This document shows positions 1 through 26,029 of a DNA stretch of 28,413 bases, piece by piece. A program made the position numbers and the translations under genes. The DNA is taken from NCBI GenBank assembly GCA_002398485.1, contig DGYV01000041.1:8717-37129 (forward strand), written 5' to 3'. This DNA is from Peptococcaceae bacterium UBA4997 (GTDB lineage Bacteria; Bacillota; Dehalobacteriia; UBA4068; UBA4997). The notes beneath the pieces are model-generated. The model saw nothing but the letters and a program-made list of their open reading frames with translations, was not told the origin of the DNA and ran no database searches. Each line of letters starts with the position of its first letter. The stretch's first letter is position 1.

Positions 1-40
1 ATTAATAAACAAAATATATTTTGCCCTAATTGTTTTTTAT

Positions 41-898
41 TTAAACATCCAGTAATACACCATCCAAAAGGCCGGAATTACTGACAATGATTTTTTCCGC
101 TTTGAGTATTTTTAAAAGCATAAGGTAGATCCTAGTACCAGGAATAATGGTATCTGTACGTTCTTTAAGTACAGGCCAAGTTAAAAGCCTTTCCTGAACC
201 GTAGCATTGCAAAGGGTTTTATAAATCCTTTCCAAAGGCTCCATGGACATAACATAACCTTCAACAGGGCCTCTGCTGTAAGTACTCAAGCCGTTCAAAA
301 CAGCCGCCAAGGAAGTAATAGTACCGCCTACACCTACCAAGGTTCTTTCACCTTCAGGCAAGCCTTTTAAAAGCGGGTTTAGGGCTGCTTCCAATTCTTC
401 ATCATCCAAAGCACGTTTCAATAAACGCACTGAACCAACTTTTACACTGCGGCTTTGCAAAGTACCGTCCGCAGCGCGCCAAATCAATTCCGTACTGCCG
501 CCGCCCGCATCTATAACTATGCAATTGCCCAAAACAGCTGAAGTAGCACCCCTGTACGCATATTCAGCTTCTTCCGCTGCCGAAAGCACACGTACATTCC
601 AGCCCATGGTTTCATTTATCTGTTGAATAAATTCAGCACTGTCCAGGGCTTCCCTTACCGCACTGGTAGCTACCACAATAGGTTCTTTTTCAATACGTCT
701 GGCCGCTATTACGCCTTTAAATGATTTCAATGCTTCCAGGGTTTGGTTTACAGCAACTTTATTCAAAGGCTCACCCGGTGAAGTTTGCCCCAACCGCGTA
801 ATAGCCATATAATCATCCGCCACGCGCACCTTATTATCTTCTACAGTACCAATCAACATTCGTACACTGTTGGAACCAATATCAATACCTGCCAGCAT
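41..898 (-). CDS. ppx: Ppx/GppA-family exopolyphosphatase / pppGpp phosphatase
   Basis: 285-residue member of the Ppx/GppA phosphatase family (ASKHA fold), which hydrolyses polyphosphate or pppGpp in the cytoplasm. Visible family motifs: GIDIGSNSVRMLIG at the N-terminus (phosphate-1 loop), VATSAVREA near residue 85, DAGGGSTEL near 138 (phosphate-2 loop), GVGGTITSLAAV near 195, and the closing SNSGLLDGVLL. The length matches the short two-domain form found in Firmicutes, without the C-terminal HD-like domain of E. coli Ppx. Start chosen at 898 because a strong AAAGGAGGGG ribosome site lies just upstream; the in-frame start at 919 would overlap that site. Last gene of the minus-strand mazG-to-ppx block, behind the terminator that follows yabR. 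Substrate preference cannot be read from sequence. Confidence 0.9.
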   Translation of the reverse strand: MLAGIDIGSNSVRMLIGTVEDNKVRVADDYMAITRLGQTSPGEPLNKVAVNQTLEALKSFKGVIAARRIEKEPIVVATSAVREALDSAEFIQQINETMGWNVRVLSAAEEAEYAYRGATSAVLGNCIVIDAGGGSTELIWRAADGTLQSRSVKVGSVRLLKRALDDEELEAALNPLLKGLPEGERTLVGVGGTITSLAAVLNGLSTYSRGPVEGYVMSMEPLERIYKTLCNATVQERLLTWPVLKERTDTIIPGTRIYLMLLKILKAEKIIVSNSGLLDGVLLDV

Positions 899-954
899 AA
901 AAACCCCTCCTTTTAACATTTTTCAACAGATTCTCCCATAAAAAGATACAAAAA

Positions 955-975
955 AAGGCATCTTGACGATGCCTT
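955..975 (-). terminator. Rho-independent terminator after yabR
   Basis: Inverted repeat AAGGCATC / GATGCCTT with a 5-base loop, followed on the minus strand by a run of T (951-956). It lies a few bases past the yabR stop, so ppx probably depends on read-through or its own promoter. Confidence 0.8.
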
Positions 976-979
976 CAAG

Positions 980-1345
980 CTAACGACCTCGCCTACCTTC
1001 TTGGTGGCGTTTTAGGGCAACCAGCTTTTCATTACTGTCTTTCATAAAATCCGCAAGCTTATCCTCAAAGCATAAATCAGGCTTTACCGGCGCAGGACGA
1101 CTAGCCGGCTTAACAGTAGCTTGCTTAATAGACAGGCCTACTTTGCCGTTTTCCCCTATACTCACTACCTTTACCTTGATTTGTTCATTTTCTTTTAAAA
1201 ATTCGTTGATATCCTTAACATAAGCATCCGCCACTTCGGAAATGTGTACCAGCCCAACCGTGCCGTCTTCCAATTTTACGAAAGCGCCAAATTTGGTAAT
1301 ACCGGTTACCACTCCGTCAACAATAGTGCCAACGGCTATAGACAT
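980..1345 (-). CDS. yabR: S1-domain RNA-binding protein, YabR-like
   Basis: 121-residue protein with one S1 RNA-binding domain at about residues 1-72: MSIAVGTIVDGVVTGI, then FGAFVKL, GLVHISEVA and GKVGLSIKQA. It aligns in order with B. subtilis YabR (general-stress protein 13 family), a cytoplasmic RNA-binding protein. The tail is rich in Pro, Lys and Arg (KPASRPAPVKP and a RRGR end), typical of this family. The reading frame is open up to 1519, but the added residues do not resemble the family and overlap divIC. The ATG at 1345 is preceded by a GGGAGGA ribosome site and gives the family's usual N-terminus. The gene lies downstream of divIC, as in B. subtilis, with about 100 bases between them. 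Confidence 0.93.
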   Translation of the reverse strand: MSIAVGTIVDGVVTGITKFGAFVKLEDGTVGLVHISEVADAYVKDINEFLKENEQIKVKVVSIGENGKVGLSIKQATVKPASRPAPVKPDLCFEDKLADFMKDSNEKLVALKRHQEGRRGR

Positions 1346-1448
1346 ATAAATTTTATCCTCCCTCAAAAAAAATGGCAAAAAGCCTTGTATAGTTATTATA
1401 ATACCCTTAACTTGTACTGTCAATGGATAAAGATTTTTAAAACCGATT

Positions 1449-1883
1449 TTAATGAAGATCCGACGCATTTGTACCATCCTTAACCAGGTCCAAAGCATCG
1501 CTCTCCTCCGCAGGTACAATTAAATATTCTCCCGGCTTGACAAGGCGCAGGTTCTCCCTGGCTATGCGCGCCAAATAACTTGCGTTTTGGAACAAAGCCA
1601 GCTGTTCTTTTAATTCATTCTGCTCTTTTTGGGCATCCTCATAAGCAATATTATAGACATTGAGCTGGTCCTTCATGTCCTGTATCCGCATATACTGCTT
1701 GCTACATTCCGCAATGGCAAATATTAAAAAACCCGTTAATATTATGCTTGCCCAACGAATCTTGCGGTGGCTTTTCTTTTCATAACAAGATACATCCTCA
1801 TCCCTGTTTTGCTTTGAGGACACAGGTTTTAGCTTTTGCTTATTTGCATTAAAATTTTTTAAGATAAATTTCTTTTTAGTCAT
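1449..1883 (-). CDS. divIC: Septum formation initiator, DivIC/FtsB family
   Basis: 144-residue bitopic membrane protein. A basic cytoplasmic N-terminus (about 1-45), one membrane segment at about 46-64 (WASIILTGFLIFAIA), then an extracytoplasmic coiled coil at about 65-105 (heptads such as QKEQNELKEQLALFQ) and the family's YLARIARENLRLVKPGEYLIV closing region in short form. DivIC pairs with FtsL in the divisome and is needed for septum assembly. Its start overlaps the end of the upstream HTH gene by 8 bases, implying translational coupling. Position between yabQ and yabR matches the B. subtilis order yabP-yabQ-divIC-yabR. Confidence 0.93.
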   Translation of the reverse strand: MTKKKFILKNFNANKQKLKPVSSKQNRDEDVSCYEKKSHRKIRWASIILTGFLIFAIAECSKQYMRIQDMKDQLNVYNIAYEDAQKEQNELKEQLALFQNASYLARIARENLRLVKPGEYLIVPAEESDALDLVKDGTNASDLH

Positions 1884-2106
1884 TTCCCGCCTCCTCTTCA
1901 GAGAAGATAGCCAAAGGATCGCCCGAAAGTACTATCACTACCTGATACCCCTTGGCTTTAGCCCTGTTGTACATAGTAGCTACAGATGAAGCACTTATAT
2001 TTAATTTTTTGGCGATAGCGTCGGTGGCTTGTCCCATTTCCTTCAAAGTCACCACCTGTTTTTCCCTGAAGCTTAAACGCTCCGCTCCCCTTATTTCCAT
2101 TTGCAT
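1876..2106 (-). CDS. Small helix-turn-helix protein (sigma-70 region 4 / LuxR-like)
   Basis: 76-residue protein. Residues about 10-55 look like a sigma-70 region 4 or LuxR-type helix-turn-helix: LSFREKQVVTLKEMGQ, then AIAKKLNISASSVATM with the turn at about NISAS, then a basic recognition end (YNRAKAKG). The C-terminus is acidic. No receiver or other sensor domain is present. The start at 2106 has only a weak upstream AAGGCGG; a second ATG two codons on is possible. It overlaps divIC by 8 bases, so the two are probably co-translated. A regulator confined to this division/sporulation operon is inference; the domain call is moderately sure. Confidence 0.7.
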   Translation of the reverse strand: MQMEIRGAERLSFREKQVVTLKEMGQATDAIAKKLNISASSVATMYNRAKAKGYQVVIVLSGDPLAIFSEEEAGND

Positions 2107-2206
2107 AAATCTTTTTCCGCCTTTTGAGAGTAGAAGAACCCACTATCTTTTTCATATCTTATTCACATTATATCCACAAATTGTGGAAAAATCAACTACA
2201 AATTTA

Positions 2207-2767
2207 CTACGAATTATGATTTTTTGGTTTTTTAAACCTGCCTGCCGCCTTTTTAACTTTATTTTTTAATTTTTTACTGCCCGCAGCTGCTTTTTTAGCT
2301 GCAAAGCCAGAACTTTTTTTAAATTTTTGCCCTGTTTTATGCAGGCCCTTAAACCCTAAATAGAATATACGGTAAAATAAACCGCTTATTAAAATAATGG
2401 GCTTGAATATGATTATTAAAACCGTTGTTGTTATTTTAAACAAAAACCTTAGCATAGAGCCTATAGCGCTGAAAAACCTTTGCCAAAACGGCAGTAAATA
2501 AGGGGAACACCATTTTAAATAAACTAAAAGCCCCAAGCCTATGGCCAACAGGATATAAAAGCGTACTTCCGCCTTGTTCAGCCATAACAAAACCACAAAG
2601 GTACTGCCAAGAGCCAAGCAGGTAAACACGGCATCACCCAAGGCTGTGGCAAGCCTACTCCTACCCTTTTTCAGCCAAACCCTGTAAAAATCGTATAAAA
2701 CAGCTAAAGCAAAGCCTATCCCCATGGAAGCTAAAAACTGAACTATTTGTAAGGTTGCCCTGCTCAT
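2207..2767 (-). CDS. yabQ: Spore cortex biosynthesis protein YabQ
   Basis: 186-residue membrane protein. Three to four hydrophobic segments lie in residues 1-140 (QFLASMGIGFALAVLYD, AVFTCLALGSTFVVLLW, FYILLAIGLGLLVYL, and a long one near 110-130), with the family signature YDFYRVWLKK near residue 25-34. The C-terminal 45 residues are highly basic (AAKKAAAGSKKLKNKVKKA), like other YabQ proteins. In B. subtilis YabQ is made in the mother cell and is required for the spore cortex. It starts one base after the yabP stop, so both are surely one operon. Confidence 0.9.
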   Translation of the reverse strand: MSRATLQIVQFLASMGIGFALAVLYDFYRVWLKKGRSRLATALGDAVFTCLALGSTFVVLLWLNKAEVRFYILLAIGLGLLVYLKWCSPYLLPFWQRFFSAIGSMLRFLFKITTTVLIIIFKPIILISGLFYRIFYLGFKGLHKTGQKFKKSSGFAAKKAAAGSKKLKNKVKKAAGRFKKPKNHNS

Positions 2768-2768
2768 T

Positions 2769-3053
2769 TTAACGCATCAGCCTTTGCACAAGGTTTTGAT
2801 TGCGTTTTTGGCGGCCTCGCTTACCTGTTGCTTCTACATAAGCTATACTGTTTATTTGCCCCCGCACCACCAAACGCTGCTCCTCCAGATAAAGGTGCTC
2901 TATATGCAGATCTTCCCCGCAGATCAAAAGATCGCCCAGGGTAGTTTCCAGGCTGATCTTTTCCGTATCGAAATTTTCCACTTTCAAAACACCCTGCATA
3001 CTGAAATCCTTGCGGCCAGTGATATGTATGTGATGACTAGCATTTTCGCCCAT
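2769..3053 (-). CDS. yabP: Sporulation protein YabP
   Basis: 94-residue protein of the YabP/YqfC family: HIHITGRKDFSMQGVLKVEN, EKISLETTLGDLLICGEDL and LHIEHLYLEEQRLVVRG correspond to the conserved beta-rich core, which closes with the usual INSIAY segment. The family is made under mother-cell control during sporulation and acts in spore envelope assembly. A GGGGAGGT ribosome site precedes the ATG. It heads the yabP-yabQ-HTH-divIC-yabR run. Upstream, the divergent hemolysin III gene separates it from rqcP. Confidence 0.92.
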   Translation of the reverse strand: MGENASHHIHITGRKDFSMQGVLKVENFDTEKISLETTLGDLLICGEDLHIEHLYLEEQRLVVRGQINSIAYVEATGKRGRQKRNQNLVQRLMR

Positions 3054-3139
3054 GATTCTTACCTCCCCTTTTTTCCCCTATATATTTTTATGCCCCAAAG
3101 CCATTGATTATGCCCAAAAGCTTAAGACATATTTAATCT

Positions 3140-3168
3140 TTGCTTTTAATATTTAATAGGAGTATAAT
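3140..3168 (+). promoter_or_regulatory. Sigma-A type promoter of the hemolysin III gene
   Basis: TTGCTT (3140-3145), 17-base spacer, TATAAT (3163-3168), about 30 bases before the translation start on the plus strand. The -10 is a perfect consensus, the -35 is partial. Confidence 0.5.
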
Positions 3169-3200
3169 GATTTTATTCTTAAAAAAGTCAGGAGATGTTT

Positions 3201-3845
3201 ATGAACATATTAACCTGCTCACGTGATCCTATCAGCAGCTTCAGCCATTTTATAGGTGCTGTTCTAGCTGTGTTTGGTACTGTTGCCATTATCATAAAAG
3301 GAATAATAACAAAAGTAGAAGCTCTGAATTTAATAGGAGCCTTGATTTTTGGTTTTTCCATGATTGCACTTTACAGTGCCAGCGCTATTTACCACTATGT
3401 AAACACTGAACCCAACAAGCTGTTCAGGCTGCGCAAGCTGGATCACGCCATGATCTACGTTTTGATTGCGGGAACCTATACCCCCGTACTTTTAACAGCC
3501 TTTGAACGCCCTCAAGGCTTGTGGCTCACAGCCGCCATTTGGGCAATAGGCTTTACAGGCATTATTCTGAAGCTTTGCTGGTTTAAGGCTCCGCGCTGGC
3601 TTTCCACCGTATTTTATATAGCTATGGGCTGGTTTATTGTAATAGACTTAGCCGCAGTGATGAATTATGCGGGCAGTGGTATCCTGCTTTTGATAGGAGG
3701 AATTTTCTATACCATAGGCGGTGTGATTTATGCCATAAAAAAACCTTCTATTAACGCAATGTGGGGTTTTCACGAAATTTTCCATGTTTTTGTGATTTTG
3801 GGCAGTGTCTGCCACTATTTCTATATTTATCTCTATATGCTTTAA
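3201..3845 (+). CDS. Hemolysin III / PAQR-family membrane protein (YqfA-like)
   Basis: 214-residue integral membrane protein with seven hydrophobic segments. Family marks: DPISSFSHFIGAVLAVFG at the start, SASAIYHYV near residue 60-68, KLDHAMIYVLIAGTYTPV near 80-98, and HEIFHVFVILGSVCHYFYIY at the end. The conserved His residues in the HY, DHAMIY and HEIFH...H segments form the presumed metal site of the PAQR/HlyIII fold. The function in bacteria is not settled; homologues were named from haemolysis in heterologous tests. Start set at 3201, not 3195, because the AGGAG ribosome site (3190-3194) directly abuts the earlier ATG. It is on the opposite strand to its neighbours and splits the rqcP-yabP operon. 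Confidence 0.9.
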   Translation: MNILTCSRDPISSFSHFIGAVLAVFGTVAIIIKGIITKVEALNLIGALIFGFSMIALYSASAIYHYVNTEPNKLFRLRKLDHAMIYVLIAGTYTPVLLTAFERPQGLWLTAAIWAIGFTGIILKLCWFKAPRWLSTVFYIAMGWFIVIDLAAVMNYAGSGILLLIGGIFYTIGGVIYAIKKPSINAMWGFHEIFHVFVILGSVCHYFYIYLYML

Positions 3846-3920
3846 ATTAACTAAAAATAGAAACCGTAAAAATCACAGAAAATGGTTTTACAGCAAAAAA
3901 CTCTTATTTTAAAAACGCAA

Positions 3921-3956
3921 AAGCCGAAACCGCTTTTTACACAGCTGTTTCGGCTT
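3921..3956. terminator. Bidirectional terminator between hemolysin III and rqcP
   Basis: AAGCCGAAAC / GTTTCGGCTT 10-bp stem between convergent genes. T-rich DNA follows on the plus strand (GATTTTTAC), and A-rich DNA precedes it, giving T's on the minus strand. Confidence 0.75.
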
Positions 3957-4024
3957 GATTTTTACTTAAAATCTATTTAATTTAAATTTATTGCATCAAA
4001 GTAAAAGCTGTTTTAGAAAAATAT

Positions 4025-4300
4025 TTACCAATCTTCCCTTTCCTGCCTTAAATTTACCTCTTTGATAATTTTATACATATTGCAGGCTTCTTCCGCTCTT
4101 TTGGTTTCACAAACTTCCAAAACCTCTAGCTCTAACTGCCTGCCGCCAAAGCTTAGGGACAAAATATCGCCAACTTTGATGTCAGTTCCCGCCTTGGCAG
4201 TCCTTCCGTTCAAAGTAATACGGCCTGCATCACTTACTTCCTTGGCTACGGTTCTTCTTTTTATCAATCTTGAAACCTTTAAGTATTTGTCCAAACGCAA
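4025..4300 (-). CDS. rqcP: S4-domain ribosome quality control protein RqcP (YabO)
   Basis: 91-residue S4 RNA-binding protein. Conserved run RLDKYLKVSRLIKRRT at the N-terminus, then AKEVSDAGRITLNGR and AGTDIKVGDILSL, colinear with B. subtilis YabO/RqcP. In that system RqcP binds stalled 50S subunits with RqcH and supports C-terminal alanine tailing. The frame is open to an ATG at 4318, but AGGTG lies between 4318 and 4300, and a TTG at 4300 gives the family's exact N-terminus (Leu/Met-Arg-Leu-Asp), so TTG at 4300 is preferred. Lies downstream of hup, which has its own terminator. Confidence 0.88.
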   Translation of the reverse strand: MRLDKYLKVSRLIKRRTVAKEVSDAGRITLNGRTAKAGTDIKVGDILSLSFGGRQLELEVLEVCETKRAEEACNMYKIIKEVNLRQEREDW

Positions 4301-4382
4301 AAACTTCACCTCATTCAAAAACTTATTTTATAATATGATTATATATAAAAAATGCTACTTGTACAAGTATATTACAAAATAA

Positions 4383-4401
4383 GCCCCGACAAAGTCGGGG
4401 C
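4383..4401 (-). terminator. Terminator of hup
   Basis: GCCCCGAC / GTCGGGGC perfect 8-bp GC-rich stem with a 3-base loop, followed on the minus strand by TTATTTTG, about 45 bases past the hup stop. Confidence 0.8.
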
Positions 4402-4446
4402 CTGCATTTTGGCTTAATTACAAATCATGCTTATTGTCTATTATAC

Positions 4447-4719
4447 TTATTGAACGTTATCCTTTAAGGCTTTACCGGCTTTGAAAGCAGGCACTTTTAC
4501 TGCGGGGATTTTCATTTCTTTACCTGTTTGCGGATTGCGGCCAAGGCGGGCAGCTCTTTCTCTTACTTCAAAAGTGCCAAAGCCTACTAACTGTACTTTG
4601 TCCTTAGCTTTTAAGGCACCGCTTACAACGGAGATAAAAGCGTCTACAGCCTTACCGGCATCCTTTTTACTTAAACCGGCATTGTCTGCTACAGCGGCGA
4701 TTAATTCAGTTTTGTTCAA
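4447..4719 (-). CDS. hup: DNA-binding protein HU
   Basis: 90-residue HU-family nucleoid protein, a homodimer that bends and compacts DNA. Family features: N-terminal helices [20 protein letters not shown], the beta-arm segment [21 protein letters not shown] (the arm with the DNA-intercalating proline), and the closing [11 protein letters not shown]. Full length for HU. Starts at TTG 4719 behind a very strong GAGGAGGGG ribosome site; no better ATG exists. Its position between mazG and rqcP matches the B. subtilis order. Confidence 0.96.
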
Positions 4720-4929
4720 AATAACCCCTCCTCATATTTGATATAAAAATAAAGTTATGGAACTTCGTCCAATAAACAATGCCATATTAATTCTCTTTAT
4801 AAAGCATTATTCCTGCTAGAAATAGGTAAATTTTTCAAAAAAATTTTTTTTCTTAAAAATTAAACATCTTTTGCAAAGTTGTATCAACATTTTTTAACAT
4901 ATTTAGACAAAGTACATCTTAACCTACTT

Positions 4930-5727
4930 TTATCCGACTTTGTTTTTCTGTTTTTCAATAGCTTTTATTTCATTCCACCAGGCATCCATTTCGCCAAGGC
5001 TTAGCTCCTGCCAATCCTTGCCGCTTTTTTGCTTTTGTTCTTCGATATAAGCAAAACGGCGGCTGAATTTTTCGTTGGCGGCAGCTAAAGCAAGCTCACT
5101 GTCCACCTCCAAAAAACGCCCTACATTGACCATGGCAAAAAGCACATCACCTATTTCCTCAACTTGATTAGCCCTACTTTCTGGGTTTTGTGCTTCTTCT
5201 ATTTCCTCAAAAAGCTTGTCCCATACATCATTAACTATCGGCCAATCAAAACCTACACGAGCGGCCTTTTCCTGAAGTTTTTGTGCCTGTAAAAGGGCAG
5301 GAAAGTGTTTGGGCATGGCCAATACGGAAGCCTTGGCCTTTTCACCGCTTTCCTCTCTTTTCAAGTCCTCCCAAATATCCATTACATCATCAGGGCTTTT
5401 TATACCGTCTTTATTACCGAAAACATGGGGATGCCTATGCACCATTTTCAGGCAAACCCCTTCTATAACATCCGCCATGGTAAATGCACCTTCCTCAGCG
5501 GCAATTTGAGCATGAAAAACCACCTGGAGCAAGAGATCGCCCAGTTCCTCACATAAATCCTTGTTATTTTTGCGGTCTATAGCATCCAAAACCTCGTAGC
5601 TTTCTTCTATTAAATAGCGGCGCAGGCTTTCATGGTTTTGCTCCCTATCCCAGGGACAGCCACCTTCTGCTCGCAGCCTGGCCATTATATCCGTTAAAGC
5701 TTTCATATCCCTATAATTTTCTGCCAT
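4930..5727 (-). CDS. mazG: Nucleoside triphosphate pyrophosphohydrolase MazG
   Basis: 265-residue protein with two MazG domains. The first (about 5-115) has CPWDREQNHESLRRYLIEES, the metal-binding EES-Y-E and EELGDLLLQVVFHA helices, and HRHPHVFG. The second (about 160-255) has LFEEIEEAQ and EEIGDVLFAMVNVGRFL. Length and order match E. coli-type MazG, which converts NTPs and non-canonical NTPs to monophosphates plus pyrophosphate. It lacks the N-terminal methylase-like domain of B. subtilis YabN. Start at 5727 follows AGAGGGAT. First gene of the block; nothing related lies upstream. Confidence 0.95.
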   Translation of the reverse strand: MAENYRDMKALTDIMARLRAEGGCPWDREQNHESLRRYLIEESYEVLDAIDRKNNKDLCEELGDLLLQVVFHAQIAAEEGAFTMADVIEGVCLKMVHRHPHVFGNKDGIKSPDDVMDIWEDLKREESGEKAKASVLAMPKHFPALLQAQKLQEKAARVGFDWPIVNDVWDKLFEEIEEAQNPESRANQVEEIGDVLFAMVNVGRFLEVDSELALAAANEKFSRRFAYIEEQKQKSGKDWQELSLGEMDAWWNEIKAIEKQKNKVG

Positions 5728-5858
5728 TTTATCCCTCTTTTCTTACTTCACGATTATATGATATATGATAAAATAACGGTTTGCAAGGCATTATTCCATA
5801 ATAGCAGATTGTATTTTAACCAAAGCGAGTATAAAATAAAGTAAAGACCTTGCTTTAA

Positions 5859-6102
5859 GGTTACCCCAAAAACTATTTATTATATAACAGTTTTGCCCAA
5901 ACCTTGGGCTTTTATATGCTTGGCCTTGCTATTCTATATCAAATTAATAAATAAAGCTTAAAAAGAAAGCATTGATATGTGGCTGCTTTACAGTTTGCTT
6001 GCGGCCTTTTTTGCCGCTATCTTCCTGGGTGAGGCGTTTAACCTTAAAATAGCTTTAGGCGGCACCTTGATAATCATAGGAACTTTAATGATAGTAATGT
6101 AA
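5859..6102 (+). pseudogene. Remnant of an EamA/DMT-family transporter
   Basis: Two hydrophobic fragments on the plus strand. Frame 5859-5954 reads LLYNSFAQTLGFYMLGLAIL, like the penultimate helices of EamA permeases. After a stop, 5977-6102 encodes 41 residues including LAAFFAAIFLGEAF and GGTLIIIGTLMI, which match the family's C-terminal FLGE...G-LII-G pattern. The first roughly 200 residues of a normal EamA protein (about 300) are absent. The 41-residue part has an ATG but no clear ribosome site. The match is from motif memory; decay by deletion and stops is what the sequence shows. Confidence 0.55.
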
Positions 6103-6176
6103 GGCAGGACTTATAGCAATAAAAACCTGCTTATAAAGCTTTTCTGTAAAACATACATTAAACATAACTGCACATA

Positions 6177-6226
6177 CAAAAGAACCGCTTTAAGGCATAC
6201 TTTACCCCCTTAAAGCGGTTCTTTTG
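6177..6226. terminator. Strong bidirectional terminator
   Basis: Perfect 19-bp inverted repeat: 6177-6195 pairs with 6208-6226 (CAAAAGAACCGCTTTAAGG and its complement), loop of 12 bases. A and T runs lie on both sides. It sits after the selenoprotein gene (minus strand) and after the transporter remnant (plus strand). Confidence 0.9.
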
Positions 6227-6280
6227 ATTTTTACTTATTAGCCTATTGAACAATAGACTTAGCTTCAAAACCTATATAGC

Positions 6281-6580
6281 TTAGCAATGCGATACTCCGC
6301 CGCCTTTGACCATAAAACCACGGCCGAACCAACTATCGGAATAATCTATAACTGCGCTTTTTAAATACTCGTCCAATTGAGAATCATAAACAACTTTTAT
6401 TTTTTCTTTTTCCATAACTACATCGGTTTCATTTATTGACTCATCCAGAGTCAATTCAAATTTGGGGCCGCCTCAACCAAAACCACCAAAAGCTACTCTG
6501 AGCATGGTATTTTCGTTATTGCCACCGTTTTTCAATATTTCCTTGAATTGTTCAATGGCTTTATCGGTTATATTAATCAT
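6281..6580 (-). CDS. HesB/IscA-like selenoprotein (in-frame UGA = Sec36)
   Basis: 99-residue protein if the UGA at 6475-6473 is read as selenocysteine. From ATG 6580 the frame gives INITDKAIEQFKEILKNGG, then TMLRVAFGGFG-U-GGPKFELTL, then DSWFGRGFMVKGGGVSHC and TAA at 6281. Nothing else breaks the frame. It has the HesB/IscA core: an N-terminal helix, LRVAFGGFG-x-GG where IscA-type proteins have their first cysteine region, and a C-terminal GGGVSHC. HesB-like selenoproteins with Sec at this place are known from Clostridia and relatives; their role is unclear, probably redox or Fe-S linked. Conventional callers would stop at the UGA and miss the gene. GGAAAGGG lies upstream of the ATG. The gene is monocistronic between the terminator at 6177 and divergent sodC. 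It implies selA, selB, selC and selD elsewhere in the genome. Confidence 0.85.
6435..6455 (-). promoter_or_regulatory. SECIS-like hairpin of the HesB-like selenoprotein
   Basis: On the minus strand, 17 bases after the UGA, ATTGACTC pairs perfectly with GAGTCAAT around a 5-base TGGAT loop. The loop G residues lie 27-28 bases past the UGA. Bacterial SECIS elements sit inside the coding region just after the UGA and carry G in the apical loop, so distance and shape fit. Confidence 0.75.
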
Positions 6581-6712
6581 AACTATTTTAACACCCTTTC
6601 CGTTTATTTATTAAGTATCTTTAGCATCATCTTAACATGTTCACCAAATGTGTTCAGTGATGATGTTACATTATTGCAGGATAAAATTAGGCTTAAATAT
6701 ATTTGTCCGTTT

Positions 6713-6741
6713 TTGACAAAATACTCAGTTTTTCTTATTTT
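6713..6741 (+). promoter_or_regulatory. Candidate promoter for sodC
   Basis: In the 330-base gap between the selenoprotein gene and sodC: TTGACA (6713-6718), 17-base spacer, TATTTT (6736-6741). Perfect -35, weaker -10. It would give a leader of about 160 bases. The gap also holds a 7-bp inverted repeat CATCATC / GATGATG (6625-6665); no other gene is visible. Confidence 0.4.
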
Positions 6742-6910
6742 TATAGCCAAATAGCCCCAAACCAAAAACGACACATACAAACTTGGCACTATATATTTGC
6801 CTATCATATATCATTCCCTGAATAAAAAATGGTACTTAAAACAATATCCCTCACTGTACAGTCATAATATGGGGGCATATCCTCATACACTTAAACAGGA
6901 GGTGGTTTAT

Positions 6911-7408
6911 ATGTTTTGGATGTTAAGGCAAAAACCAAAAAACTATTTGAATTTATTACTTAAACAACAGCCGAGTGCAAAAGCCGTTATAAAGGGTAGC
7001 TCAGCTTATCCAAACATTTGCGGGATAGTGTATTTTTACCAAACAAAGGATGGTGTATTGTTGATCACAGAGGTTTCGGGTTTGCCGCATAATGACAATC
7101 CATGTGATACAGGGGTTTTTGGTTTTCACATACATGAAGGATCTGCCTGCATAGGAAAAGCCAATGACCCTTTTGCAGATGTGGGAATGCACTATAACCC
7201 AAAAAATTGCAAACATCCACACCATGCGGGAGATCTTCCGCCCCTCTTTGAAAACCATGGATATACCTTCATGGTATTCTTAACTGACCGTATCACGGTA
7301 GATGAAATAATTGGCCGTACCGTAATAATACACGGCTCACCCGATGATTTTACCACTCAGCCATCAGGTAATTCAGGGCAAAAGATAGCCTGTGGGCAAA
7401 TAAAGTAA
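6911..7408 (+). CDS. sodC: Cu/Zn superoxide dismutase-like protein, cytoplasmic
   Basis: 165-residue SodC-family protein. Ligand pattern is visible: His73 and His75 in GFHIHEG, bridging His94 in GMHYNP, His102/104/105 and Asp108 in HPHHAGDLPPL, His141 in VIIHG, and the disulfide pair Cys80 and Cys161 (IACG). The usual active-site Arg of the GxRxACG stretch is Lys158 here. No signal peptide or lipobox precedes the domain, so unlike classic bacterial SodC it should stay in the cytoplasm; signal-less forms like this occur in clostridia. Start set at 6911 because AGGAGGTGG lies just upstream; the frame is open to 6797 but the extra residues are low-complexity and unlike the family. Superoxide dismutation is the family reaction; the Arg-to-Lys change makes the level of activity uncertain. 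Confidence 0.85.
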   Translation: MFWMLRQKPKNYLNLLLKQQPSAKAVIKGSSAYPNICGIVYFYQTKDGVLLITEVSGLPHNDNPCDTGVFGFHIHEGSACIGKANDPFADVGMHYNPKNCKHPHHAGDLPPLFENHGYTFMVFLTDRITVDEIIGRTVIIHGSPDDFTTQPSGNSGQKIACGQIK

Positions 7409-7799
7409 AGCTGAAGCCATAATCGCCCCTGCTTATTCTTGCTTTTACCTGCCATTTATTGTATATGCTGCCTAAGGGAAAAATCATTTTAATACAAAGC
7501 CTATCAACCATTTTTTGTTTCTTAGGCTAACTCATAAGTATCCAAAGAAGCCTTATCATCAAAAACAAATATGAAATCTCTTCTATTAACAATAGTTGAA
7601 AAGTATAACCTAAAGTAATTTTTCCCTTAAAATAAAAAAGCCCTTTCTTACTCAACTGTACAAACAGGCAAGAGAGGGCTTTTATGGTTGCAGAACGTTA
7701 TAACATATTTTGCCTGCAATAATGTTTCATTATATTTATAAAAATTGACTTATATAATAAGGTCAAATGCTAATATGTTTATATCAAAAATACAAGTTA
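7409..7799. other. Intergenic region, no intact gene
   Basis: Between sodC and the 143-residue membrane protein gene. It holds the terminator at 7638-7681. On the minus strand, 7522-7596 reads a short gene-like peptide (RDFIFVFDDKASLDTYELA) without a start codon or ribosome site, possibly a scrap of a lost gene. Nothing else is recognisable. Confidence 0.4.
7638..7681 (+). terminator. Terminator downstream of sodC
   Basis: AAGCCCTTTCTT (7638-7649) pairs with AAGAGAGGGCTT (7670-7681) with one G-T wobble. A-rich DNA precedes and TTTTATGG follows, so it may work in both directions for the convergent genes. Confidence 0.7.
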
Positions 7800-8231
7800 T
7801 TATTTTAATACTTTTTTCCTAAAAAAAACACTTATAAAACGGGTCCCGCACGAAAATAATGCTATACCCAAACCCGTATAAAAAAATGCGATTACCCAAT
7901 CAGGAATTATATGGGCAGATCGCAGTGTAATGCCTCCGCTCATCATGATTATCATTATTATATAGGAAGGCTTATCAAAAAACTGCCAAAAAGGCATACA
8001 TTCCCTTGGGTTTTCCCGAATACGAATCGTATGCTTTTTTACAAGTTTAGAAAAAATCAACAGATAAAAAGCTAAAAACACAATCACCGCAAGTACGGAT
8101 AACCAAATGTTACCTGATAAATCTATCAGCAAAGGCAGCCCCAAAACAGTAACCATGGTACCTGCCGCAAGCCATACCACTCCTGCAATCAGCATAAGAT
8201 AATTTTTAGGTATAGAAAATTTATCTTTCAT
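7800..8231 (-). CDS. Uncharacterised four-helix membrane protein
   Basis: 143-residue protein with four hydrophobic segments: YLMLIAGVVWLAAGTMVTVL, WLSVLAVIVFLAFYLLIF, SYIIMIIMMSGGITLR and WVIAFFYTGLGIALFSCG. A conserved-looking cytosolic loop lies between helices 2 and 3 (RIRENPRECMPFWQFFDKPS). I have seen the pattern MSGGITLR...IPDW-IAFFYTGLG in unannotated Firmicute proteins but know no function. AGCAAGGGGT precedes the ATG. It lies 110 bases downstream of the PAP2-like gene on the same strand and may be co-transcribed with it. Confidence 0.75.
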   Translation of the reverse strand: MKDKFSIPKNYLMLIAGVVWLAAGTMVTVLGLPLLIDLSGNIWLSVLAVIVFLAFYLLIFSKLVKKHTIRIRENPRECMPFWQFFDKPSYIIMIIMMSGGITLRSAHIIPDWVIAFFYTGLGIALFSCGTRFISVFFRKKVLK

Positions 8232-8341
8232 TTTACATACCCCTTGCTAAAGTAATATATTATATTATGCAGCACCTGTTATATTTGTGATACTGAATAT
8301 ATAGCTTCCTACCTTAAATAAATGTTTATTGAATTTTTACA

Positions 8342-8926
8342 TCAAGCAGTTAAAATCCTGGCATCGGCAAGCAATACTGATATAAAAAATGCCAAAACAG
8401 CTATGCCGGATCCAAGTAAAAATTGCACTATCGTATGCCTTTTCATGGCTAAGCTTGAAAACAGGGAAAGTATAAAAACAGGTAATCCCCAAAAACCCGA
8501 CGGCCCAATAAAATACACAAGAATAGTTATTGGCCCGGCAATACCGCAAGCGTGTCCGCTGGCACGAAACTTAATAAGTTTATTAAATATAACAATGCCC
8601 ATACCTGAAAACAAATAAGTAAGATAGATTATCCAAACGGCTTTGGTTGCATCTGTACATATAGCCACAACAATACCCAATACATAACCAATAACCGCCA
8701 TAACTATTGCCAAATTCCGTTGGCCCTCCCTTCCCGCATTTTTATATTTGGGAATTACAGGCTGCAACGGATATGCTAGCATTGGCAAAACCGTAAGAAA
8801 AAGAACAGCAAAAACATATTGCATTATGCTGCCAAATAATACAGGCCTTAAGCAGTACATGATCGTCAACATTGCAAATGCCATTATTGGAACAATAGTT
8901 ATCACTCTAATGATTTTATTATACAA
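8342..8926 (-). CDS. Membrane protein, divergent PAP2-like
   Basis: 194-residue protein with about six hydrophobic segments. Two PAP2-type signatures are suggested: KFRASGHACG near residue 120-129, resembling the family's (P)SGH motif, and MKRHTIVQF near 160-168, resembling the R-x5-H-x3-D motif, but with Gln in place of the catalytic Asp. The K-x6-RP motif is not clear. It may be a divergent lipid phosphate phosphatase relative or have lost catalysis. Starts at TTG 8926, 11 bases after AAGGAG; no nearby ATG fits. It precedes the 143-residue membrane protein gene. Confidence 0.6.
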   Translation of the reverse strand: MYNKIIRVITIVPIMAFAMLTIMYCLRPVLFGSIMQYVFAVLFLTVLPMLAYPLQPVIPKYKNAGREGQRNLAIVMAVIGYVLGIVVAICTDATKAVWIIYLTYLFSGMGIVIFNKLIKFRASGHACGIAGPITILVYFIGPSGFWGLPVFILSLFSSLAMKRHTIVQFLLGSGIAVLAFFISVLLADARILTA

Positions 8927-9463
8927 AGTAACCTATTCTCCTTATCATTGTTTTGGGGATATAAAATTTACCCAAAACCATATTGGAAAACATTTTTATA
9001 TATAAAAAAGCAGTGGCATAGTTTTTATTTTATATTTTTATTTTGAAATAATCTATAAAATTTTATAAAGTTTTTATATAATTTCCATACCTTACTCATC
9101 ATTAAAGCAAACCTAAAGTTGATAATACTTGCTTGTTATCTTGAAAATTTATTACTTATAAAATATCAAACAAGCTTATATTTCGATAATAACACGGTAG
9201 CACCGTAATGTCAAAATAATACTTAAAAGCTGCACTTATAAAAAATAAAGGTTCGTTTTTCGGTATCGATTTTGGGAATCATCTTTTGTTAGCGTCAAAA
9301 GCTTTAGGCAGAGCAGCCATTACAATAACGCTGAACGATATGCCGCTTTGAAAAGTATCTGCTAAAAAGCCGTTAAACATACAGCCTTAAACAAACATTA
9401 TTTCCGTAAATGTAAAAAAACCATTTATCCAATCCGCAATAAACCAAGTTTTTTTAATTATTT
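8927..9463. other. 537-base AT-rich gap with possible gene scraps
   Basis: No intact gene. On the plus strand, 9247-9351 reads a 34-residue open stretch without start (FGIDFGNHLLLASKALGRAA then ITITLND) that faintly recalls a PP-loop/LarE N-terminus. On the minus strand the same area also reads plausibly (ADTFQSGISFSVIVMAALP), so neither can be claimed. A small hairpin ACGGT-AGC-ACCGT is at 9193-9205. Confidence 0.35.
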
Positions 9464-10834
9464 TTAAGGCTGCAGGGCAGTTTTATATTGTTGGTAAATA
9501 TCAGTAAGCTTTCCGTTAGCTAAAGCATCATATTCCTGCCAAGCCAAATAATAAGCATAGCCTGCATTTGATTTTGCCAGTTCGGCTTGCTTATAAACAA
9601 GCTCTGCTCCACGAAACTCCAAAGGAGAAATCAATCCCAGTGCCAATGAGGTTTGAGCATTTTTAAGTTTAGTTTTAGCATTGGCACAAGCCTGTATTTT
9701 TTGTTCATATGTATCACCGGTAAGCTTTATATTATCAATCTTTTTCTTAACCTCATTAGCCAAATCCTGTTCGGCATCTATTATAGCAAGCTCTTTTAAA
9801 TCGATACAATATTCCAAGGCTTGTTTTTTATTGCTATCTTTTACTTTCATACTGCCTATCTGCCTGCGGTAATTTTTTATGTCCCGCTCCAAGGCTTGAA
9901 TAGCATAACTTTTATCCGTTATTTCACTTACCAGCTTACTGTTGTATACAGGCACCTCGTCAATAATACCTTCCCCAACCACATATTCGGCAAGCTGCAA
10001 TTCCTGATCCAGTGGGTGCCCAATCAAATTATTTATTTGTCTTTTTATCATCTTAAGGCCGTTTTGAGCTTCTTGCAATTGGAGAGCAGTTTGAGCGGCT
10101 TCCTGTTTTTTAGTTTCCAATTCGGTAATTGTAGTATAACCTATACTCATTTTTACCTGTTCCACCTCATAAAGTTTAAGCTGGAATTGGTGCTTTTCAG
10201 TTAAAAGATCAATGGACTTTTCCAGCTCCTTAGTTTTAGTAAATAACAAGCCGCAAACCATGCGTATTTGATTATCAACATCCTGTGAGCTTTTTTCCAG
10301 GTCATCCGCCTGTGCATCATAATCCAGGTATTGGCCATTTAAATCATCATAGGCAGAATCCAAAATACCGCCAACACTTTGCGCAGATAAACCTGTTAGG
10401 GATACATTGGTGGTGAGCTGCTGCTTTTCAAATTCCAAAAGCATTTTTTGGGCCTCCAAGCCTCTATCTGCCGCTAAAGCAGGATCAGCAGCCATGGCAG
10501 TATTCAGCTTACTCAAAGCCGCATCTATTTGTGCAAGGGCGGCATTGGTTTTAGCGGCTGCAGAACTGTAAGTATTATTCAGCGTATTTGTACCTGAATT
10601 GAGCGTATTCATACCATTTTTTAATGCCTTCTTGCTTTGCTCCAATAAATCCAAACCTGTATTTATTTTATCGCTGATACGGTTTTGTTTTACAGCCATT
10701 TGTTGAATTTGGCTAAGCGTATAATAAGAAGCTGTAGGGTCGGTATTATCATCACTTGCCCAAGCAGGAACAGCCATAAGCAAAATAAAACTGAATGTCA
10801 GCAGTAATGTCATAGGTGTTTTTATGATTTTCAT
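9464..10834 (-). CDS. TolC-family efflux protein
   Basis: 456-residue exported protein. A signal peptide at 1-26 (LLLTFSFILLMAVPAWA, cut likely after AWA) is followed by almost continuous alpha-helical coiled coil: SLTQ-like opening YTLSQIQQMAVKQNRI, long Ala/Leu/Gln/Lys heptads, and two repeats of similar layout (about 45-230 and 260-456), as in the TolC/outer-membrane efflux family. The repeat-end sentences KTKELEKSIDLLTEK and ANAKTKLKNAQTSLALGLIS (as in TolC's repeated LGLIS/xxLxGxxS turn) support this. Last gene of the operon, 38 bases after the second ABC-2 permease. Start at 10834 (ATG) follows AAAGGAAG; the TTG at 10852 would overlap it. In a monoderm the protein would act at the cell surface rather than as an outer-membrane channel. 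Confidence 0.8.
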   Translation of the reverse strand: MKIIKTPMTLLLTFSFILLMAVPAWASDDNTDPTASYYTLSQIQQMAVKQNRISDKINTGLDLLEQSKKALKNGMNTLNSGTNTLNNTYSSAAAKTNAALAQIDAALSKLNTAMAADPALAADRGLEAQKMLLEFEKQQLTTNVSLTGLSAQSVGGILDSAYDDLNGQYLDYDAQADDLEKSSQDVDNQIRMVCGLLFTKTKELEKSIDLLTEKHQFQLKLYEVEQVKMSIGYTTITELETKKQEAAQTALQLQEAQNGLKMIKRQINNLIGHPLDQELQLAEYVVGEGIIDEVPVYNSKLVSEITDKSYAIQALERDIKNYRRQIGSMKVKDSNKKQALEYCIDLKELAIIDAEQDLANEVKKKIDNIKLTGDTYEQKIQACANAKTKLKNAQTSLALGLISPLEFRGAELVYKQAELAKSNAGYAYYLAWQEYDALANGKLTDIYQQYKTALQP

Positions 10835-10872
10835 CAATATACTTCCTTTCAAATACTTTTTCGGTTAAGCCT

Positions 10873-12048
10873 TTACTTATTTTCCTGATAACAGGCTTTG
10901 ATTCTTTTTGATTTCAACCAATATATTAAGGTTGCTAAAACCAATGCAACTAAAGTAATCGCCGCCATTATCATCATATTCTGCCGTAAACTATCAAAGC
11001 CACAGCCTACCAAAGCTATATTCCTTACAGAAGTGGCAAAGTAGGTAAGCGGAAAAACCAAACCGAATATTTTATAAAAACCCGTCATGGCTATCTTGGG
11101 CCACATATAACCACCCATCAGCAAAGCAGGCGCGGTTAAGGTAATGGAAACCGAGGTAGCCCAAACTATAGTGGGAGCAAAAGCGGATACAAAGGCTCCC
11201 ACGCTTGCCACACAAACAATAAATATAAAACTGAATACGAACCATACCCACCAGCTGCCCAGCATAGGAGTAGCAAAGCCATATATACCTATCATATAGC
11301 AGGCAGTCCAGCTTAGCATAGCCAAGATGATATAAGGGCATATTTTGGCAACTACAGTACAAAAGGCCGAGCGTTCCAGCTCAAAAACCTCTGCCCAAGT
11401 ATCATCTGTTTTTTCCCTGATTATGCTGGCCGCTGTAAAATAGAACAATACTTGGTATACGGCCACCACTATCAAACCGATTATCAAAAAATGGCTGATA
11501 TTGCTGGTAGGATTATACCACGGGCGAATGCTGAAGCTTATAGGCATTACCTGCCCTAAAGCTTTATCCACGGTATCTCCCCCGGCAACCAAATTTTTTA
11601 CCGCTATTTGCGTGGAAACAGTGCTGATGATTTCCGAACCCTTTACCATCATGGTAGCCCCTATACCTAAATTGGATGCATTAGCACCTATGAGCACCTC
11701 TGCTCCCTCGCTTCTTTTCAACTTCCGGGCAAATTCAGGCGGTATTACCAATACACCATCCAGCTCACCCTTAATGAAAGCTTCCTTGATGGCATTTTCC
11801 GTAGGATAATAACCCCGTACATCAAAAATACTGGATTGATCAAAACTATTGATCAACTCCCTGCTGGCACTGCTATGGCTGTAATCCACTATACCTAAGC
11901 GCAGATGGTCAAAGGTTTGGTTGCTGAAAGTAAAGCCTATAATAAGAGTAGTAATTATAGGTACTATAAAGAACAACACCAAAGTACGGGGGTTAGCTTT
12001 TATATACCTGCACTCTCTCATAAATATTTTGTTAAAAGACTCTAACAT
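10873..12048 (-). CDS. ABC-2 type permease, second copy
   Basis: 391-residue permease of the ABC2_membrane_3 (YhhJ/YbhR-like) type. One N-terminal membrane segment (TLVLFFIVPIITTLIIG), a large extracytoplasmic domain at about 40-175 (DQSSIFDVRGYYPTENA, GELDGVLVIPPEF), then five hydrophobic segments to the end, with MRPW/IRPWYNPT before the second one as in this family. It starts at ATG 12048 inside the last 7 bases of the first permease gene, behind AAGGGGGG, so translation is coupled. Paralogous to the first permease over its whole length; the two likely form a heterodimer. Neither carries a nucleotide-binding domain. Confidence 0.87.
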   Translation of the reverse strand: MLESFNKIFMRECRYIKANPRTLVLFFIVPIITTLIIGFTFSNQTFDHLRLGIVDYSHSSASRELINSFDQSSIFDVRGYYPTENAIKEAFIKGELDGVLVIPPEFARKLKRSEGAEVLIGANASNLGIGATMMVKGSEIISTVSTQIAVKNLVAGGDTVDKALGQVMPISFSIRPWYNPTSNISHFLIIGLIVVAVYQVLFYFTAASIIREKTDDTWAEVFELERSAFCTVVAKICPYIILAMLSWTACYMIGIYGFATPMLGSWWVWFVFSFIFIVCVASVGAFVSAFAPTIVWATSVSITLTAPALLMGGYMWPKIAMTGFYKIFGLVFPLTYFATSVRNIALVGCGFDSLRQNMMIMAAITLVALVLATLIYWLKSKRIKACYQENK

Positions 12049-13214
12049 GTGGCTTTGCCCCCCTTCTTTTTGCTTTGCCAAACAAAGAGGAGCAAGCCGA
12101 TAACCGTAGCGGCTACCGCCATGGCAGATAAGATGAGCAGATCCTGCTTGATATAGCTGAAACCATGGCCCAATAAAGCTATATCCCTGGTATGCTGGGC
12201 TATATGGGTAATAGGTACTACCTGCGAAAGCTTTACCAAAAAATCAGGCATCAAGCTATGCGGCCAAGCATAACCGGAAATCAAATAACAAGGGTAAGTC
12301 AAAAGCATGGTCCAATGCATGGCATTGATTTGGTTTTTGCATAAAAGCCCTATACACATACCTATACCTAAAGAAGCGATTATAAAAGGTATGCCCAAAG
12401 CTATAATATCCCCAGGTTTGCCCCGCATGGGAATGGCATATACCTTAAAGGTTATATAATATACCGAAACCATTATTATAAGAGCTATCACCCAATAAAA
12501 CAGCAGTTTACCCAAACCTGCCAACACGCTGTTAGAGGCACAGCTTACCAGTTCGGGTAAAGTTTTTTGTTCCTTTTCCTTGGCAAAACTTGTGGCAGCG
12601 GCCAATATCATCAACTGCTGCAAGGCTATAGCCACTACACCCAAAAAAAAGTAATTCAAATAACTGTATTGGGAATTGAACCATGGTCGCATTACACCCG
12701 TTATAGGCATTATCTTGTTTTTTGCCATATCCACAGTAGCACCTTTTGCTATAAGACCTGCCGCGGAAAGCCTTACTGAACAATTTTGAATTATCTCCAT
12801 AGCCCCCGCGATAGAAGTGTTATTGATAATACTGTTTACGGCATTTATGCCAATCAGCACATTGGTATTCTTGCCCCTGTTCAAGTTATAAGTAAAATCC
12901 TTAGGTATAAGCAGGATCACATCCACCTTATCCTGTTCTATCATTTTTACTGCTTCGGCTTCGCTTTCCAAGTAATATTCAACATCAAAACGCATGGATT
13001 CATCAAAGCTGCGGCTGATATAACGGCTTACTTGTGTATTGGCTTGGTCTACCACCGCTACACGAATACCTATCACCATATGATTTATAAATAAAAAACC
13101 AAATAAAAAAGTAACTATAAAAGGCACCACTAAAAAAAACATGAATGCCCGCGGGTCATGTAAAATCATTTTAGCTTCCCTTATACCAATACGCCACATT
13201 TTCCTAATGGACAT
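12042..13214 (-). CDS. ABC-2 type permease, first copy
   Basis: 390-residue ABC2_membrane_3 permease. N-terminal anchor FMFFLVVPFIVTFLFGF, an extracytoplasmic domain at about 45-180 (ESEAEAVKMIEQDKVDVILL, PKDFTYNLNRGKN), the marker GVMRPWFNSQYSY near 190, then five C-terminal membrane segments and a basic tail. The ATG at 13214 shares a base with the stop of the upstream membrane-fusion gene (TAATG), so the proteins are coupled. Together with the second permease, the fusion protein and TolC it resembles E. coli YhiI-RbbA-YhhJ or YbhGFSR systems, except that no ATPase gene is present. Confidence 0.88.
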   Translation of the reverse strand: MSIRKMWRIGIREAKMILHDPRAFMFFLVVPFIVTFLFGFLFINHMVIGIRVAVVDQANTQVSRYISRSFDESMRFDVEYYLESEAEAVKMIEQDKVDVILLIPKDFTYNLNRGKNTNVLIGINAVNSIINNTSIAGAMEIIQNCSVRLSAAGLIAKGATVDMAKNKIMPITGVMRPWFNSQYSYLNYFFLGVVAIALQQLMILAAATSFAKEKEQKTLPELVSCASNSVLAGLGKLLFYWVIALIIMVSVYYITFKVYAIPMRGKPGDIIALGIPFIIASLGIGMCIGLLCKNQINAMHWTMLLTYPCYLISGYAWPHSLMPDFLVKLSQVVPITHIAQHTRDIALLGHGFSYIKQDLLILSAMAVAATVIGLLLFVWQSKKKGGKATC

Positions 13215-14224
13215 TATTGCACCTCAGCTTCGGATACCACAGGCTCAAGTATCACGTTGGTGAGCATACCGGGATAAAGCAAGTTATCATCAAGGGGAAT
13301 AGCTATTTTAACCTCATAAGTAACTATATCTTGGTCATTCAATTCATTGGTGGATTTTTTGGTAGCAAAATCCGGCGTTTTGCTTACATTTAAAATAGTA
13401 CCCGTGAATTTTTGATCAGGATAAGCTTTGGCGGTAAGCAATAAATTTTGCCCCGCAGCCAATTTTCCTATATGTAACTCATCCACATTCACCAGCACCC
13501 ATCTTTCCGAATAATCGGTTATGGTAACTACAGGCGTGCCGCTTGCTATCAACTCTCCCACCTCACTGGAAAGCATAGTTACAATACCGTCTGTGGGTGC
13601 TACCACTTTTGTAGCGTCCAAATTCAAATCCACTTCAGCCAATACAGCCTTAGCCGCTTCATATTGAGCTTCCAAAGCTTCTATATCTTCGCTTCTGGCC
13701 CCATTCAAGGCTGTGTTATATTGTTCCCCAGCCATGTAGGCATCCAGCTTAGCAGCCTCTAATTGTGTAGTAAGCTTATCTAGATTATCCTCAGAAAGCC
13801 CGCCCGTATCATACATTATCAGCATTTTATCATATTCTTTTTGCAAAAGATCCACATTTAGCTGGGCCTTATCGGCCAAAGCCTTAGCTGATCTTATTGT
13901 TTCATCAGTGGCACCGTTTTCAGCTTTATCCAATTGGGCTTTAGCTGCTTTTACACTGGCTGCCGCTTGTAATTTTTTTACTTTCAAGTCCCTGTCATCT
14001 GTAGTAAAAAGCAGTGTTCCTGCCTTTACTTCCTGCCCTTCCTTCACATATATGTTAATTATTTTACCCGGTATTTTAGCCCTAATATCAACTTCCTTAC
14101 ATTCAACTATGCCTGTGCTGCTATAACTTGTATCTAAAACGGCAGCTTCGCCGGCAGAACAACCTGATAATAAGGTCATAATACCAAACATCACAATCAA
14201 TCCAAAAAACCTTTTACTTCTCAT
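13214..14224 (-). CDS. Lipoprotein membrane-fusion protein (HlyD/YbhG family)
   Basis: 336-residue periplasmic adaptor. A type II signal with lipobox LLSGC (lipidated Cys near residue 22), then a beta-hairpin/lipoyl half (KIPGKIINIYVKEGQEVKAG, about 50-70), a coiled-coil hairpin (about 80-190, Ala/Lys/Glu rich, AKAQLDKAENGATDE), the second lipoyl half (VVAPTDGIVTMLSSEVGELI, about 205-225), and a beta-barrel (about 230-320, GQNLLLTAKAYPDQKFTG). Order and length match YbhG/YhiI adaptors that join ABC exporters to TolC. First gene of the operon, facing the tetR-type gene across a 219-base promoter region. Confidence 0.9.
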   Translation of the reverse strand: MRSKRFFGLIVMFGIMTLLSGCSAGEAAVLDTSYSSTGIVECKEVDIRAKIPGKIINIYVKEGQEVKAGTLLFTTDDRDLKVKKLQAAASVKAAKAQLDKAENGATDETIRSAKALADKAQLNVDLLQKEYDKMLIMYDTGGLSEDNLDKLTTQLEAAKLDAYMAGEQYNTALNGARSEDIEALEAQYEAAKAVLAEVDLNLDATKVVAPTDGIVTMLSSEVGELIASGTPVVTITDYSERWVLVNVDELHIGKLAAGQNLLLTAKAYPDQKFTGTILNVSKTPDFATKKSTNELNDQDIVTYEVKIAIPLDDNLLYPGMLTNVILEPVVSEAEVQ

Positions 14225-15520: not shown

Positions 15521-16260
15521 CTAATTCAGTTCAGGGAAACCCAATTCTACACCGCCATATTGAGTAAAGGTAATTGTATAGCTTTGATCCCTAGTCATAG
15601 CACTTCTGTCTGCGTTGACCGTACAAAAATGGCCGGTAACCTGCTTAATTCGACCATGCTGATCCAAAAGTACGGTTTACATCGGTGGCTTTCTATAAAA
15701 ACTGAATTCACCATAGCTGTATTCCTCGGCAGTCATGGGAAAACGATATGTATAATATTTTTCACTATCTAATTCAAAGGTAAACAGACGTCCATCAAGG
15801 TTATCTTGTACACTCTCCTTGGTGATAACGTTTTTAGGAAAATAGATGATCCCCTCGGTTGCAAGGTTTCAGGGAAAGTCATCTGCGTACTTTTTTCCAT
15901 ACTTTTGCTCCGGGTTAGTCATGCTCTGTTCATATAGTTAACCATCACGAAAATACCATTTTGTTATATAAGCTTGTGCCTCCTTATTATCCTTTACAAC
16001 AGAATCTACAATAGCCATAACTTTATTATCTTTATAGATTACTTTCCAAGTTAACGTTTCAGTCATGTGTGTTTCATCCACCGAGTCAATCAGATTCATT
16101 AAAGTGGTCAAGAAGGATTTGTTTTCCACAATAAAAGAATCCGCTTCTTTTAACTGCTGATAGGCCTGCAGGTATTGCTGATGGGGTTGCTCATTGGCGC
16201 AGGCGGTAAAGAAGAGTAAAGCAAAACCTAAGCAAGCAAGTAGCAATACTATTTTTTCAT
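15521..16260 (-). pseudogene. Broken lipoprotein gene (frameshift plus three stops)
   Basis: From ATG 16258-16260 (with GGGAG upstream) the start is followed by six A's; a seventh would give MKKIVLLLACLGFALLFFTAC, a textbook lipoprotein signal. One base is therefore missing right after the start. The downstream frame runs 240 codons with gene-like composition, broken by TAA (15940-15938), TGA (15871-15869) and TAA (15679-15677), ending at TAG 15521. Readable segments include NPEQKYGKKYADDFP, ATEGIIYFPKNVITKES, YYTYRFPMTAEEYSYGEFSF and QSYTITFTQYGGVELGFPEL. It is a solute-facing lipoprotein-like protein of unknown function, reminiscent of clostridial DUF6612-like lipoproteins. All lesions lie in one frame, so recent inactivation is likely. 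Confidence 0.8.
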
Positions 16261-24639: not shown

Positions 24640-24663
24640 ACATATAGACAGTCATCTATATGT
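24640..24663 (+). promoter_or_regulatory. ArsR operator palindrome
   Basis: ACATATAGA (24640-24648), six-base centre, TCTATATGT (24655-24663): a perfect 9-bp inverted repeat at the expected transcription start, between the promoter and the arsR ribosome site. Placement and shape are those of SmtB/ArsR-type operators, so autorepression is likely. Confidence 0.75.
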
Positions 24664-24676
24664 GGGAGGTTGCATT

Positions 24677-26001: not shown

Positions 26002-26029
26002 GTTTTTATTTTAAGGAGGTAATATTAAA

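Follow-up and report, generated by a model that had tools for sequence, protein, structure and literature searches.

A probable divergent HesB/IscA-like selenoprotein gene in Peptococcaceae bacterium UBA4997

HesB-like selenoproteins, selenocysteine (Sec)-containing relatives of IscA, were listed as known by 2005 (PMC1088965) and counted as 11 in 2006 (PMC1794560). They carry the motif UxGP (PMC13188914), and the cysteine (Cys) motif of the A-type iron-sulfur (Fe-S) carriers is C-Xn-CGC (PMC5471300). The HesB-like selenoprotein of Methanococcus maripaludis is reported to have been found by mutagenesis and 75Se labelling, and its role is called unclear (PMC11097638). The sections of the literature searched on these proteins brought no function to light, in agreement with an earlier note on the DNA studied here, which had described the family as known but uncharacterised. 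We analysed a 28,413-nt stretch of Peptococcaceae bacterium UBA4997 (GCA_002398485.1, contig DGYV01000041.1, positions 8,717 to 37,129 of the forward strand; hereafter "the window", with positions counted from its first base). A gene on its minus strand (6281..6580) is very likely one more member of this known family, adding a well-supported representative to a group of selenoproteins of open function.

The reading frame and its selenocysteine codon

The minus strand from 6580 to 6281 reads as a single open frame for a 99-residue protein, in which the sole internal TGA is codon 36 (6473..6475) in the context GGFG-U-GGP, matching base for base the frame that the earlier note had proposed to depend on Sec decoding of this UGA. 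The protein ends in ...GGGVSHC, and the codon for Cys99 and the TAA stop occupy 6281..6286 (minus strand). Residues 36-39 form the UxGP motif as UGGP, and alignment to the Escherichia coli IscA chain 1s98 places the TGA where IscA has its first conserved cysteine. In a protein search, the only entry from this very frame was P0007, a piece of 57 residues from downstream of the TGA, bearing out the view that ordinary open reading frame (ORF) calling misses the gene. We predict with high confidence that the UGA is read as Sec at residue 36 of a protein with a predicted IscA fold.

One alternative to a functional Sec codon would be a decayed HesB/IscA gene, with the TGA as a nonsense mutation and the hairpin behind it (see below) a product of chance. 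Among 149 genomes searched, including that of UBA4997, we found 38 family matches in 29 genomes, 27 of which (from 22 genomes, the window gene among them) contain one in-frame TGA, while the other 11 have none. In the 22 TGA-bearing first copies whose DNA was read, the TGA stands at the aligned position, and in the window the frame is open on both sides of it, both of which argue against decay. So does the presence of selA above the cut-off in all 22 genomes with the TGA form, compared to 93 of the 149 genomes overall (approximately 1e-5 in a hypergeometric test that ignores kinship). The nine other genomes of the same taxonomic family in this set show neither a HesB-like gene nor selA. When 398 sampled genomes of the phylum were searched with a profile, 109 gave matches, Cys-type relatives included, so this divergent HesB-like group is common in the phylum, and 28 of the best 30 rows have an in-frame TGA. 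Decay does nevertheless occur in the family, as two distant matches of this wider search (G312 and G168:C11) have a TAA in frame.

A second alternative is that the TGA is translated as tryptophan under a code similar to table 4. In a motif search, 124 proteins were compared (120 listed among 326 matches, plus earlier matches), of which 73 have a tryptophan at the site, including P0002, which is 91% identical to the window protein. A further 50 have a Cys, a count that includes P0001, where C stands for U, and the remaining one, P0007, is the fragment without the site. At the DNA level, however, the 30 loci read, the window's own included, show TGA at the site in 22 cases and a Cys codon in seven, with one locus (L041) unaligned there, and none has TGG. 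In addition, the tryptophan entry P0022 ends in ...SCW, as though its terminal TGA had also been read as tryptophan. Because of the lack of TGG codons in these loci and the end of P0022, the tryptophan entries most likely represent code-4 gene calls of TGA, many of them on short contigs, and we consider genuine tryptophan decoding hardly credible. Public protein sets probably show such genes either with a tryptophan in place of Sec or in truncated form. The same loci bear on the decay of the frame, as the 22 TGA and seven Cys loci keep it; stops or indels throughout the frame, which the earlier note had named as evidence against its proposal, were not found among these loci.

In the phylogenetic tree, the window gene groups with P0002-P0004 (support 100/98), and a Sec member, L042, is placed inside a Cys group (99/97); the deep forks are too weak to order the conversions between Sec and Cys. 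TGA-type and TGA-free copies occur together in G045 (L021 and L042), G376, and G414. The second G045 copy has a Cys, and the two form a natural Sec/Cys pair that could be regulated by selenium. Two distant HesB-like paralogues, L069 (G037) and L074 (G041), have a GCG-U motif with a Cys two positions before the Sec codon and lack both UxGP and a UGGAN loop at the usual place; they are perhaps a separate Sec subfamily. Searches with a single protein query found no relative on viral contigs and one partial match in a scan of genome contigs, located in a Bathyarchaeota metagenome-assembled genome (56% over residues 54-80).

The SECIS hairpin and selenocysteine decoding in the host

The published model of the bacterial Sec insertion sequence (SECIS) asks for a loop of 3-9 nt, a stem of 4-16 bp, a G within the first two loop bases, a distance of 16-37 nt between UGA and loop, and a minimum free energy of at most -7.5 kcal/mol (PMC13188914). 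Behind the TGA of the window gene, 17 bases (6472-6456) lead to a perfect 8-bp stem, whose arms ATTGACTC (6455-6448) and GAGTCAAT (6442-6435) enclose the 5-nt loop TGGAT (6447-6443; UGGAU in the RNA). This predicted SECIS hairpin (6435..6455, minus strand) has the G at loop position 2, lies with its loop 25 nt from the UGA and, folded alone, reaches -10.1 kcal/mol (z -4.46, with none of 200 shuffles as good). It thus agrees with the model in all four numbered constraints, and the position, stem, and loop given in the earlier note are exact. The N1-N2 loop pair that is usual in the model is an unpaired U-U here. When the whole window was scanned for frames of at least 70 amino acids that are open through one TGA and are followed by a stem of at least 5 bp with a G at loop position 1 or 2, 14 candidates were obtained, and the HesB-like gene had the longest stem (8 bp vs. 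7 bp for the next best).

Conservation of the stem was assessed over seven base pairs in 24 of the 27 rows with a TGA, counting the window gene, leaving out L034 (an extra codon after the TGA) and the GCG-U-type copies L069 and L074. The counted pairs are formed in 90.5% of the cells vs. 81.0% after shuffling (none of 500 shuffles reached the observed value), and pairing drops to 21%-46% when the stem positions are slid. Five stem pairs show changes on both sides, a number reached by 2 of 500 shuffles, and the five inner pairs are intact in all 24 sequences, and in four of these pairs both bases vary. The loop reads UGGAN in 23 of the 24 aligned genes. Several observations weigh on the other side: a 51-nt piece including the TGA folds less strikingly (z -1.57, 17 of 200 shuffles as good), the two outer counted pairs are broken in 11 and 5 of the 24 sequences, further pair types stand out less from the shuffles (25 of 500 had as many), and the stem encodes a conserved LTLDES-like stretch, so that its constancy may be partly due to coding. 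The hairpin seems nonetheless to be selected at the RNA level. The unremarkable fold of the 51-nt piece would suit a decayed gene, but a stem that is kept with changes on both sides would not, and together with the recurring TGA and the presence of selA in every genome with the TGA form this makes decay very improbable.

The genome, assembled to 81% completeness (1.71 Mb, 72 contigs), encodes the machinery for Sec decoding. We found selA (537.7 bits, covering model positions 54-453 and apparently truncated at the contig end) with selB adjoining it (365.2 bits), selD (373.5 bits; L010, G000:C67:24926-25849), and the tRNA-Sec gene selC (65.2 bits vs. a gathering score of 47), and hence all four sel genes whose joint absence the earlier note had regarded as fatal to a selenoprotein. 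The selD gene has one in-frame TGA, which makes it likely that selenophosphate synthetase is itself a selenoprotein in this organism. A search of the genome for glycine reductase GrdA gave no match, but its control matched nowhere either. In this host, the conserved hairpin after the UGA would let SelB insert Sec at residue 36, yielding the 99-residue protein.

Possible chemistry and genomic neighbourhood

Compared to the C-Xn-CGC motif of IscA, Sec36 would take the place of the first Cys and the single C-terminal Cys99 that of the CGC pair. In most Sec-type relatives a Cys stands at the C-terminus or beside it (19 of the 22 Sec-type first copies have one among their final two residues), so the likely chemistry is that of a Sec36/Cys99 pair, in which the two residues would meet either as ligands of iron or a cluster in a dimer or as a redox couple. 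The invariant Cys99 in alignment A3 is due to selection of its members, since L023 (a near copy) and L038-L040, which lack a C-terminal Cys, were left out. The tails vary, and some are rich in Cys, with three residues in L022, L027, L036, and L042 and four in L060. In the remaining five copies, the last residue is Cys in L060 and L070, whereas L068 ends in CG, L074 has a Cys at the third position from the end, and L069 has none.

For the dimer, we consider it close to an even call that iron or an Fe-S cluster would be held by four soft ligands, two Sec36 and two Cys99 residues. Contacts predicted between the first-Cys loop of IscA and its C-terminus support the involvement of the first Cys in cluster binding, although an older view reported in the same source held Cys35 of IscA to be idle in this process (PMC5471300). 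This older view weighs against the arrangement, as do the Sec-type relatives L038-L040, which speak against an obligatory Sec-Cys pair, and the predicted structure, which is poor at the C-terminus (pLDDT, the predicted local distance difference test score, is <50 for residues 97-99) and thus does not predict the distance between Cys99 and Sec36. The protein might instead be a genuine selenoprotein that acts as a selenol redox enzyme via a Sec36-Cys99 selenenylsulfide and does not serve as an iron or Fe-S ligand protein. This possibility, which we regard as a serious but weaker candidate, gains from the Cys in the last two residues of most first copies and from a 2026 review that anticipates a redox role for most selenoproteins not yet characterised (PMC13188914). 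It loses from the fold and family, which are those of Fe-S carriers, and from the tails with three or four Cys, which exceed the need of a redox pair.

The genome encodes an IscU scaffold (153.6 bits), and neither SufB/D nor a second PF01521 protein was detected in the 81% complete assembly. Within the limits of this completeness, the selenoprotein would therefore be the only A-type carrier-like protein of the genome. A broader proposal builds on ligation by two Sec36 and two Cys99 in a dimer: HesB-like selenoproteins would carry iron or Fe-S clusters through selenolate ligands, and in UBA4997 this protein would be the one A-type partner of IscU, so that Fe-S delivery would depend on selenium supply. 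We consider this proposal unlikely. Further points against our overall interpretation are that the M. maripaludis disruption mutant is reported to still fix nitrogen (PMC11097638) and that no recurring neighbour points to Fe-S assembly in the regions described below.

The gene is solitary, with the nearest same-strand ORF of at least 50 amino acids 557 bases away. On its 3' side lies a strong, near-palindromic 19-bp hairpin (6177..6226, minus strand; -30.6 kcal/mol, z -8.9) that could serve both strands and whose 3' arm ends in UUCUUUU. It is a likely terminator, in line with the earlier note, which had the gene standing alone with a terminator of its own. For context, ORFs were clustered from 28 regions and window positions 1-14000. 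The gene is present in 27 of the 28 regions (26 TGA copies and, with Cys, L057; several of them are truncated at contig ends) and missing from L075. Besides the gene itself, no family was found in more than four loci, and no operon partner emerged among the clustered regions. Apart from the HesB-like gene, the ORFs of window 1-14000 had no counterpart around the 27 related copies, other than one weak match of ORF 980-1519 at one locus.

Divergent from the selenoprotein gene lies a Cu/Zn superoxide dismutase gene, sodC (6911-7405, plus strand; PF00080, 91.8 bits), with a likely start at 6911 behind AGGAGG. The earlier note had taken this neighbour as a hint of an oxidative-stress context, for which we find no support, since neighbours are not conserved and SodC was unmatched in the 27 neighbourhoods. 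With no other family shared beyond four loci and SodC unmatched, the context does not indicate function. A link to the Sao system, considered because of the Cys-Cys ends, was dropped, as there are no shared neighbours and the CC end is found in some tails only.

Elsewhere in the window, an EamA-transporter piece of 41 residues (5977-6099, plus strand) covers only the end of the domain (23.0 bits, below the cut-off of 28.2) and is likely a gene remnant. An ArsR-type regulator, an ArsP_1/SaoE-like permease (PF03773, far under the cut-off of the SaoE model), a small thioredoxin (PF13192, whose CxxC motif has Cys rather than Sec), and a CMD-domain protein stand in a row at 24662-26626 (plus strand), likely a metal or metalloid efflux cluster. 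At approximately 15679-16246 (minus strand), a lipoprotein-like ORF without a Pfam match (15938-16246) precedes a frame that looks coding and has a TGA at 15871, and the two are perhaps one broken gene.

Relation to known HesB-like proteins

The window protein contains the IscA/HesB domain PF01521 and scores below both curated models for Sec-containing members, with 59.4 bits for TIGR01911 (HesB_rel_seleno; cut-off 66.35) and 54.7 bits for NF038090 (IscA_HesB_Se; cut-off 85). All 11 scanned members of the divergent group fall under both cut-offs. Such scores, like the entries with tryptophan at the Sec site or in truncated form, matter for the counting of selenoproteins and for building families of Fe-S carriers. 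The protein also scores under the IscA, ErpA, and SufA equivalog cut-offs, and instead of the C-Xn-CGC motif it has the predicted Sec36 and the single terminal Cys only, differing from these carriers in having Sec for the first Cys and one terminal Cys for the CGC pair.

We place it among the known HesB-like selenoproteins as a divergent member. With the described members (TIGR01911/NF038090; PMC1794560, PMC13188914) it shares the IscA/HesB domain, the predicted Sec at the conserved Cys site, the UxGP motif, the downstream SECIS-like hairpin, and a Sec-decoding host, and it differs in falling outside both curated models. The M. maripaludis protein is, by its description, likewise a Sec-containing IscA relative (PMC11097638), but it is archaeal, and SECIS elements are reported to lie in the 3' untranslated regions there (PMC13188914).
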